64,000 nucleotides of DNA from Flavobacteriaceae bacterium (lineage in GTDB: Bacteria; Bacteroidota; Bacteroidia; Flavobacteriales; Flavobacteriaceae): positions 157,672 through 221,671 of the forward strand of contig NVXD01000018.1 in assembly GCA_002746415.1 (NCBI GenBank). Direction: 5' to 3'. Each line of letters opens with the position of its first letter. Position 1 is the first letter of the stretch. The notes beneath the pieces are model-generated. The model saw only the letters and a program-made list of their open reading frames with translations. It was not told where the DNA came from and searched no databases. Positions 14,407-16,473 of this stretch are shown here, one piece after another. A program made the position numbers and the translations under genes.

Positions 14407-14414
14407 TATATTTG
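14407..14414 (+). promoter_or_regulatory. Predicted -7 element for the first sigma factor gene
   Basis: TATATTTG matches TAnnTTTG and would give a leader of about 115 bases before the ATG at 14536. The -33 position is T-rich without a clean TTTG. Confidence 0.4.
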
Positions 14415-14535
14415 ACATTGAATATAAAAATAGAATAGCCTATACCGCACAATTACTTTTTAAAAGTTAACCTATAAAAATCTAAATCTTTCCAATAGTG
14501 GAAAGACGGTGATTTTAGCTAAAAAAAGTAATTAC

Positions 14536-15120
14536 ATGGAACTTCAAATTGATGATTCGGTATTAGTAAAAAATTATATTCAAGGAGATGAAAGATCTCT
14601 AGAAATCCTTATCAACAGGCATAATCAACGAATCAGTAGCTTTATTTATTCCAAGGTATTAAACCAGAGTATCACAGATGATATTTTTCAGGATACCTTC
14701 ATTAAGGTCATTAGAACCCTAAAGAGGGGCTCATATAGCGAAGAAGGTAAGTTCTTGCCTTGGGTTATGCGGATAGCCCATAACCTTATTATAGATTACT
14801 TTAGAAAGAAAAACAGACTTCCCAAATTTGAATGCAATGACAATTTCAATATTTTCTCCATTATTGGTGATGGAAAATTGAATGCGGAAAAGCAGTTGAT
14901 TAAGAATCAAATAGATTTTGATATCAAGCTAATGATAGAAGAATTGCCGGGTGACCAACAAGAGGTTATTACAATGCGCATGTACAAGGATATGAGTTTT
15001 AAAGAAATATCTGAGAATACTGGAGTAAGTATCAATACTGCATTGGGTAGAATGCGTTATGGATTAATCAATCTAAGAAAGATGATTGAGAAGCATAATA
15101 TCGTTTTAACGAATTATTAG
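14536..15120 (+). CDS. ECF-like RNA polymerase sigma-70 factor, copy 1
   Basis: A 194-residue sigma factor containing region 2 (DIFQDTFIKV and FLPWVMRIAHNLIIDYFR, about residues 45-100) and region 4 (MRMYKDMSFKEISENTGV, then TALGRMRYGL, about 145-185). Lacking regions 1 and 3, it is ECF-like. I chose the ATG at 14536 over a GTG 27 bases upstream because it aligns exactly with the second copy at 15640. Sequence and order match that copy, so this is one half of a tandem duplication. No membrane anti-sigma gene is adjacent; a 47-residue ORF follows after 71 bases. Confidence 0.92.
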   Translation: MELQIDDSVLVKNYIQGDERSLEILINRHNQRISSFIYSKVLNQSITDDIFQDTFIKVIRTLKRGSYSEEGKFLPWVMRIAHNLIIDYFRKKNRLPKFECNDNFNIFSIIGDGKLNAEKQLIKNQIDFDIKLMIEELPGDQQEVITMRMYKDMSFKEISENTGVSINTALGRMRYGLINLRKMIEKHNIVLTNY

Positions 15121-15191
15121 GTCATAGGACGAACAAGGTAAATACATCCGTATACGCTACGTTATCTTAAAACATAGCAAACCAAAATAAT

Positions 15192-15335
15192 ATGGAAAAA
15201 ATTTACGCTAAGAAAAAACAGACTTGTGAATTAGTTAATGCTCAACCAAAGACGGTACAGTTTTTATTGAACTACTCTAAATCACTACACATTGTAGATT
15301 ATAATGGTTTAAAGTTTGAAAGTAACAAGAATTAG
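15192..15335 (+). CDS. 47-residue conserved small protein, copy 1 (downstream of sigma factor)
   Basis: A short ORF beginning MEKIYAKKKQTCELV and containing the core TVQFLLNYSKSLHIV, ending in FESNKN. A second ORF of exactly the same length follows the paralogous sigma gene at 16289 and shares MEKIY, a Cys at residue 12, the core FLLNYSKSL and an N-terminal spacing with no gaps. Conservation of protein length and sequence between duplicates argues that it is translated. It has no signal peptide or membrane helix. A role in controlling the partner sigma factor is plausible but unproven. Confidence 0.75.
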   Translation: MEKIYAKKKQTCELVNAQPKTVQFLLNYSKSLHIVDYNGLKFESNKN

Positions 15336-15407
15336 ACCTTTAAAATTTATTGGCAACGTAGCACAAGGCAATTAATTGTCTTTTACAATGCGTTCTTATA
15401 TAGTATG

Positions 15408-15436
15408 AGCCCCATCTTTTTGATGGGGCTTTTTTA
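15408..15436 (+). terminator. Rho-independent terminator after the first sigma/47-aa module
   Basis: AGCCCCATC and GATGGGGCT form a perfect 9-base stem around a T-rich loop, followed by seven T. It lies 72 bases after the 47-residue ORF. Confidence 0.85.
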
Positions 15437-15452
15437 TTAGAGAAATATAAAA

Positions 15453-15491
15453 CCGCTGTTTGACATCATAAATCCGTTGTTTGACAACATA
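15453..15491 (+). repeat. Pair of direct repeats upstream of the second sigma factor gene
   Basis: CCGCTGTTTGACATCATA (15453) and CCGTTGTTTGACAACATA (15474) differ at three positions and start 21 bases apart, two helical turns. This spacing suits two protein dimers on the same face of DNA. The second copy contains the imperfect palindrome TTGTTTGACAA. Confidence 0.6.
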
Positions 15492-15639
15492 CTTTTTTGC
15501 AGACTTCCCTATTTATATACTTTTAAAATGTAATTGAGAATCAAATAGATAGCAAAGCAGTTACATATTAGAATAATATAACATCAAAAAATAGCAACCC
15601 TTTAAATAGGAAACTCATTTAACTAAAAAAATAATTTAC

Positions 15640-16221
15640 ATGGAAGTTCAAATAGAAGATTCAGTATTAGTAAGAGAGTACATAAGCGGAAATGAAAAAG
15701 CTTTAGAAGCTCTTGTTAATAGACACAATCAGAGAATAAGTAGCTTTATTTACTCTAAAGTGTTGAATCGTGACATTACAGAAGATATTTTCCAAGATAC
15801 TTTCATTAAAGTAATCAATACATTAAAGAAGGGTTCCTATAGTGAAGAGGGTAAGTTTTTACCATGGGTAATGAGAATTGCACATAATTTGATTATTGAT
15901 CATTTCAGAAAAAATAAAAGAATGCCAATGTTTGAAGGCAATGATGATTTTAATATTTTTTCGGTTATAAGTGATGATAAATTGAATGCAGAGAAACTGA
16001 TTATAAAAGAACAGATTGATTCAGATTTAAGAGTGTTGGTTGATGAATTGCCAGAGGATCAAAGAGAAGTACTTCTTATGCGTATCTATAAAGACATGAG
16101 TTTTAAAGAAATATCTGAAAACACGGGAGTTAGTATAAACACTGCCTTGGGAAGAATGAGATATGCTTTAATCAACCTTAGAAAAATAATTGAGAAAAAT
16201 AATATTGTATTGACAAGCTAA
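15640..16221 (+). CDS. ECF-like RNA polymerase sigma-70 factor, copy 2
   Basis: A 193-residue sigma factor with region 2 (DIFQDTFIKV, FLPWVMRIAHNLIIDHFR) and region 4 (MRIYKDMSFKEISENTGV, INTALGRMRYALINL). Most residues are identical to copy 1 at 14536, with differences concentrated at the N-terminus, the linker between regions 2 and 4, and the last residues. The pair therefore arose by tandem duplication followed by divergence. It carries its own control region with direct repeats and its own 47-residue partner at 16289, so the two copies may respond to different inputs. Target promoters are unknown. Confidence 0.93.
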   Translation: MEVQIEDSVLVREYISGNEKALEALVNRHNQRISSFIYSKVLNRDITEDIFQDTFIKVINTLKKGSYSEEGKFLPWVMRIAHNLIIDHFRKNKRMPMFEGNDDFNIFSVISDDKLNAEKLIIKEQIDSDLRVLVDELPEDQREVLLMRIYKDMSFKEISENTGVSINTALGRMRYALINLRKIIEKNNIVLTS

Positions 16222-16288
16222 AGTCAAAAACCTTATAAAGCAATATATCCATGTTAGTGGCGTTATTATGACATAACAATACTATTAT

Positions 16289-16432
16289 ATGGAAAAAATT
16301 TACTCTGAACAACACAATACATGTAGACTGGCTAAAGCCTGTCCTGAAACTGTTTCGTTTCTTTTGAATTACTCCAAGTCACTGTATATTACGCAGTACA
16401 ATAATATAAGATTCGAAGGAAATCTAAATTAA
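16289..16432 (+). CDS. 47-residue conserved small protein, copy 2 (downstream of sigma factor)
   Basis: An ORF of the same length as the one at 15192, starting MEKIYSEQHNTCRLA and containing TVSFLLNYSKSLYIT, ending FEGNLN. It keeps the shared MEKIY start, Cys12, the core FLLNYSKSL and the Phe-Glu near the C-terminus, but differs at many positions between, as expected for a coding sequence under selection. It begins 67 bases after sigma copy 2, versus 71 for the other pair. Its stop codon forms the left end of a large terminator hairpin. Function unknown; cytoplasmic by composition. Confidence 0.75.
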   Translation: MEKIYSEQHNTCRLAKACPETVSFLLNYSKSLYITQYNNIRFEGNLN

Positions 16433-16473
16433 AAAACAAAAAGAACTCCTAATTAGGAGTTCTTTTTGTTTTT
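16432..16473. terminator. Bidirectional terminator, 42-base perfect palindrome
   Basis: Bases 16432-16473 form a perfect inverted repeat centred between 16452 and 16453, with an A-run on the left and a T-run on the right, so it can terminate transcription from both sides. It overlaps the last codons of nth (whose stop is 16453-16455) and the stop of the 47-residue ORF. Confidence 0.8.

Follow-up and report, generated by a model that had tools for sequence, protein, structure and literature searches.

What is the 47-residue protein encoded behind each of two tandem sigma factor genes in a Flavobacteriaceae bacterium (contig NVXD01000018.1 of assembly GCA_002746415.1, positions 157,672 to 221,671, the 64,000-nucleotide stretch referred to here as the window)? 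Sigma factors are proteins that direct RNA polymerase to chosen genes. An earlier note on this DNA had described two modules, each consisting of a sigma gene resembling the extracytoplasmic function (ECF) type and a 47-codon open reading frame (ORF), and had seen no anti-sigma factor here. We confirmed the coordinates and lengths (Table 1) and the spacers of 71 nucleotides (nt) between sigma1 and small1 and 67 nt between sigma2 and small2. The absence of an anti-sigma factor is likely wrong: profile alignment, tree and structure matches point to the short protein itself. We consider it probable that an ECF sigma factor is paired here with a 47-residue descendant of the class I anti-sigma domain (ASDI), still a predicted anti-sigma factor although cut down to the fourth helix of that domain.

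In the window, the two modules lie in tandem between uvrA and nth, both on the minus strand. Both sigma proteins have the sigma2 and sigma4 domains of ECF factors, and no sigma3 family is among their Pfam matches. The sigma copies are 77% identical (149/193), less than the near-identity first described, and the small proteins 60% (28/47). The pairing of this sigma factor with a small ORF is far beyond chance. Among 80 named loci, the best 80 of at least 560 relatives picked by sigma similarity, a homologue of 45-50 residues follows 104 of 104 sigma copies, in 103 cases at no more than 150 nt. The usual form at these loci is a single copy in the order uvrA-sigma-small-nth-bcp, with uvrA, nth and bcp flanking the module at 76 of the 80 (these three names are assigned from the sequences rather than from a family search); single-copy orthologues do carry the short ORF. 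Within the family, the small-protein profile matches in 226 of 249 genomes (E <=0.01) and the sigma factor in 240 (E <=1e-35). At the order level the sigma factor was found in 117 of 148 genomes (121 copies, with a small-profile match directly behind 93), and across the class Bacteroidia 134 of the 149 genomes contain a relative of it (E <=1e-22), nearly always one per genome. Relatives of the sigma-small pair recur throughout this class, for the most part at one and the same locus.

Purifying selection acts on the small ORF: the pooled ratio of nonsynonymous to synonymous change (pN/pS) is 0.15 over 19 pairs, and 0.05 for sigma. The earlier proposal of a regulator or accessory protein, to be checked by the frequency of the short ORF and its coding constraint, was thus right in outline: the protein is a conserved sigma partner. 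Synonymous change is lower in the small ORFs (15192-15335 and 16289-16432 in the window) than in sigma (pooled pS 0.37 vs 0.55), which hints at an extra constraint at the RNA level or at high expression. This difference would also fit a conserved stretch that matters as RNA, as a small RNA or terminator region, with an incidental ORF; given the pN/pS, the ORF intact in 104 of 104 modules and the conserved C-terminus, we regard that explanation as hardly credible.

Searches of Pfam, NCBIfam and PDB sequences with the 47-residue proteins or their profile gave no credible match. In some lineages the partner gene is longer, encoding 72-96 residues, or 173-194 residues with a hydrophobic segment. 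Profile alignments connect the short to the intermediate forms (98%) and the intermediate to the long forms (93.9%). The short profile can also be aligned to the long one without the intermediate; the match falls on the last helix (P 3.5e-5, a score reached by 0 of 300 column shuffles), and both forms contain the core P-x-x-x-I-x-x-I-L-x-[YF]-S-[KR]. In an AlphaFold (AF2) model of an 88-residue form, helices span residues 7-14, 20-32, 34-52 and 59-71, so these relatives show the three-helix bundle followed by helix 4 that characterizes class I, and the top 17 PDB matches of the model in Foldseek were all anti-sigma factors, none significant singly. The location beside an ECF sigma gene, another class I trait, holds for all 104 copies, and the optional zinc motif HxxxCxxC is in neither 47-residue sequence of the window. 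A few partners carry their hydrophobic segment behind a full anti-sigma domain, and the series likely spans membrane-type proteins to a single helix. Twelve long-ORF matches were fetched, including one chance match (L351); the class A/B loci L292-L321, selected for resemblance to the long form, are therefore uninformative on frequency.

A sigma tree was built from 141 rows (four duplicate loci dropped; types of L125, L192, L271, L215 and L292 assigned by hand, where an upstream ATG or a chance ORF misled the automatic call). The distribution of partner types over it requires 23 changes. Partners with the domain are found in one clade of the class, in 9/9 genomes of group f8 and in 2/2 of f14, which lie next to an f4 genome with the helix alone. 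Most simply, the ancestor would have had a full domain from which helices 1-3 were lost several times independently, helix 4 being spared each time. Covariation between the partners (computed on the 208 pairs, out of 213, retained by the core filter) depends on the true pairing of sigma and small protein, as 0 of 60 within-group shuffles gave couplings as high. Judged by these sequence comparisons and structure models, the 47-residue protein is most likely a reduced anti-sigma factor, probably a remnant kept as the one helix predicted to grip sigma.

Several observations weigh against this identification. The 47-residue proteins lack helices 1-3, so neither their sequence nor their length is that of an anti-sigma domain; the bundle with helix 4 is not present in them and only the helix-4 core aligns. 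An earlier short-to-long alignment with other settings was weak (4.7% probability, P 0.0026), the individual Foldseek E-values are 0.9 or worse, and VIA cautions that helical bundles can attain such Z by chance. The tree bootstrap had not settled, long branches were flagged, and no small gene was found behind sigma in 17 of the 141 rows. Sigma region 2 shows no excess of couplings (17 of the top 40 vs 15.9 in within-group shuffles), and only the post hoc top coupling (N60-Tyr) falls in region 2.2.

Solved complexes show helix 4 lying over sigma regions 2.1-2.2, the site for core polymerase, and helix 1 over sigma4 (excerpts of PMC7406223 and PMC4598750). The contact with sigma4 is gone here, which favours an anti-sigma descendant that no longer inhibits and serves as co-activator, chaperone, stabiliser or adaptor to another regulator, and the protein has gained a tail. 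In the forms tallied, a C-terminal Asn, possibly a degradation or fold signal, ends every one of the 92 short and intermediate proteins, 14 of the 25 with a full domain and none of the 4 of membrane type. A model of sigma and small protein read through as one chain at locus L151 (mean predicted local distance difference test, pLDDT, 73; predicted template modelling score 0.48) gives the small part as one helix and a beta-hairpin with block pLDDT of 71-87; the stretch between the domains has 38-52. We nevertheless think a non-inhibiting role rather unlikely: helix 4 accounts for 12 of the 14 leading contacts in known pairs (PMC7406223, excerpt), so inhibition through sigma2 alone is plausible, and the ECF-type promoter described next fits negative feedback.

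The ECF promoters of Flavobacterium psychrophilum are marked by a CGT box (PMC9723704, excerpt). CGTT occurs 26-57 nt upstream of the small-gene ATG in 106 of 106 modules, against a shuffle mean of 12.6; in 69 of them CAAT precedes it at exactly 20 nt (shuffle mean 0.085). Across the order and class, the 112 modules left after exclusion of those lacking a small gene or having a gap below 25 nt include 111 with CGTT (shuffle mean 17.1) and 42 with CAAT at the 20-nt distance (0.07), which reads as 21 nt at f8 loci. Where the small gene is relocated or far behind sigma, AAT-N16/17-CGTT is present in five of six cases (shuffle mean 0.06) and CGTT alone in the sixth. We infer that the sigma factor reads the small-gene promoter, by which the 47-residue protein would close a negative feedback loop. 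A search for a regulon with the promoter motif speaks against this, as the window's own genome gave background only (4 vs control 4); some relatives exceed their control.

The small gene's own promoter-like element would also suit a protein that is simply one of the sigma regulon, is encoded next to sigma by chance and acts elsewhere in the cell, and five of 83 order-level matches (E<1e-3) do lie away from sigma. The likely descent from an anti-sigma domain, the adjacency across the class and the couplings with the cognate sigma make this improbable in our view. Separately, in the f7 genomes L212, L213 and L214 the small gene is far from sigma and the CGTT element is still upstream of it.

We also noted CAAT-N16-CGTTAT upstream of mltD, a lytic transglycosylase gene (SLT and LysM), at L397, L399, L401, L402 and L403. 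The site is found in 5 of 7 genomes of the tandem clade vs 1 of 21 others examined (two loci without an ORF were dropped), and its exact form is not in the window's own genome. The gene upstream of mltD reads like pgk, a name we presume, and the -35 element lies inside its end, so the site is only a lead; mltD is a possible second target of the sigma factor.

The earlier note also held that the leaders before both sigma genes are conserved. This applies to the last 20 or so nt before the two ATGs; as wholes the leaders differ, that of sigma1 folding strongly (z -3.54) and that of sigma2 (15535-15649) not (z 0.11). TAnnTTTG is the flavobacterial sigmaA-type -7 consensus (PMC9723704, excerpt), and this box followed by GC[CG]TAT precedes 25/25 first copies, 33/56 single copies and 0/25 second copies. 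The motif GC[CGT]TAT is present in 52/56 single-copy, 25/25 first-copy and 0/25 second-copy leaders, and the inverted repeat TTACTTT...AAAGTAA in 43/56, 22/25 and 0/25, respectively. In an alignment of 32 leaders (A5; 23 first copies and 9 related single copies), the helix that pairs the start codon covaries, with 28 cells changed on both sides vs 14.1 in shuffles and 0-2 in slid versions. Start-codon pairing is less evident further away: the consensus of 25 more distant single-copy leaders is an 8-pair stem without the start codon and with one covarying pair, although two of them, folded singly, close over it. Searches with model R1, built on the leader, placed the element upstream of sigma at 30 of 42 additional family loci (E <=0.01); in a set of 48 loci from family, order and class they gave 4 matches (E <=0.001), all at class loci. 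Rfam gave no match to the sigma1 leader up to E 1, and its listed matches elsewhere in the window were all below cut-offs.

Comparison of the copies indicates that sigma and small gene were duplicated together, long ago. In trees of 65 of the 106 modules, the copies are largely separate: first copies need 3 label changes for sigma and 2 for the small protein, second copies 5 and 4, and starred branches force only one. Since the split is imperfect, several duplications or a degree of mixing may have occurred. First-copy sigmas evolved faster, being further from the outgroups in 25 of 25 tandem pairs (13 of 25 for the small proteins). The modules had been thought to have diverged in input or target. 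A change of target by the two sigmas is not favoured, because the promoter-reading regions are the best conserved between copies (region 4.2 97% and regions 2.3-2.4 88% identical over the 25 pairs). Control does differ: first copies keep the leader motif in 25/25 and the -35 CAAT of the small gene in 0/25, second copies in 0/25 and 25/25, so it was control that was divided between the copies, rather than the target that shifted. Possibly the second copy lacked the leader from the outset, the duplicated unit having started downstream of it. The intrinsic terminator behind small1 makes the modules look like separate transcription units.

In the mechanism that we propose, a signal would open the leader hairpin and sigma would be made; sigma would activate the promoter of the small gene, and helix 4 of its product, descended from a whole domain by repeated loss of helices 1-3, would cover sigma regions 2.1-2.2, exclude core polymerase and inhibit by itself. 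In the tandem clade the RNA element would stay with copy 1 and the promoter element with copy 2. More tentatively, and with somewhat less confidence than doubt, we suggest that this could be a near-universal switch of Bacteroidia, in which hairpin-gated sigma translation is combined with a sigma-driven inhibitor repeatedly whittled to one sigma2-binding helix, the smallest anti-sigma factor and one missed by surveys.

The class II anti-sigma factor CnrY has a cytosolic part of about 45 residues and a membrane anchor. It resembles the proteins described here in being a very short inhibitor whose second helix lies on sigma2 like ASDI helix 4; it differs in that its first helix lies on sigma4, whereas here one helix and a beta-hairpin are predicted, and the PDB sequence search with the small protein listed no CnrY match. 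With class I (RseA, MucA, RskA, ChrR, RsiW, RslA) the locus shares the gene adjoining an ECF sigma gene, the helix 4 core and long relatives with a predicted three-helix bundle and helix 4, but the window's proteins have no helices 1-3, zinc motif or membrane segment and are below the 50-residue limit of the class I survey (PMC7406223, excerpt). EcfO-Reo of Bacteroides/Phocaeicola is likewise a Bacteroidota ECF sigma factor with an anti-sigma gene; it was rejected as a counterpart, since Reo spans the whole envelope (PMC13114119, excerpt) and the 47-residue protein has no membrane segment. SigP of Porphyromonas gingivalis (PorX-SigP, type IX secretion) is an ECF sigma factor of 193 residues and was considered as a candidate orthologue of the window's sigma factor; one homologue is reported in Flavobacterium johnsoniae, and a small partner goes unmentioned in the available passages on SigP.

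The class I survey found anti-sigma domains beside 6% of ECF sigma genes in Bacteroidetes vs 32% in all phyla and set aside those under 50 residues (PMC7406223), by which a conserved regulator would be missed. If our reading is true, sigma factors seemingly without an inhibitor are held in check by an anti-sigma factor shrunk below detection. With natural forms that range from a membrane-type anti-sigma factor down to one helix, the minimal requirement of an anti-sigma factor becomes testable. A sigma factor retained by most genomes of a major class also gains two control elements here, a leader RNA and a likely feedback promoter. We found no description of it in the available passages of open-licence PMC literature.

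Table 1 Features of the tandem sigma locus (positions in the window)
Feature	Position	Strand	Description	Basis
-7 box	14407..14414	+	TATATTTG, flavobacterial sigmaA-type (TAnnTTTG), before sigma1 leader	sequence
sigma1 leader RNA	14438..14544	+	GCCTATA motif, apical hairpin; outer helix pairs sigma1 start-codon bases	covariation, fold, model R1
sigma1 leader arms	14451-14461, 14523-14533	+	AATTACTTTTT and AAAAAGTAATT	
sigma1	14536..15120	+	ECF sigma factor, first copy, 194 aa	Pfam Sigma70_r2 and Sigma70_r4_2, NCBIfam sigma70-ECF, all above cut-off
-10-like element of small1 promoter	15160..15165	+	CGTTAT; -35 CAAT (20 nt upstream elsewhere) missing	
small1	15192..15335	+	47 aa, predicted helix-4-only anti-sigma factor	
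intrinsic terminator	15407..15431	+	3' of small1	terminator scan
sigma2	15640..16221	+	ECF sigma factor, second copy, 193 aa, closer to single-copy orthologues	Pfam/NCBIfam and trees
small2 promoter	16241..16266	+	predicted ECF-type, CAATA (16241)-N15-CGTTAT (16261)	
small2	16289..16432	+	47 aa, predicted helix-4-only anti-sigma factor	
inverted repeat	16438..16467	.	AAAAAGAACTCCT / AGGAGTTCTTTTT, likely two-way terminator in small2-nth gap	read in sequence; not in terminator scan

Direct repeats (CCGYTGTTTGACAWCATA) were detected upstream of the sigma2 leader at 15456-15500, and GTTTGACAACATACTTTTT also precedes second copies in Maribacter loci. Small-protein matches outnumber sigma matches in seven family genomes (G009, G108, G128, G213, G236, G255 and G260). 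Outside the family (L215, L216 and L220-L228), the locus often extends past bcp into another conserved gene, which reads like recA by its sequence rather than by a search.
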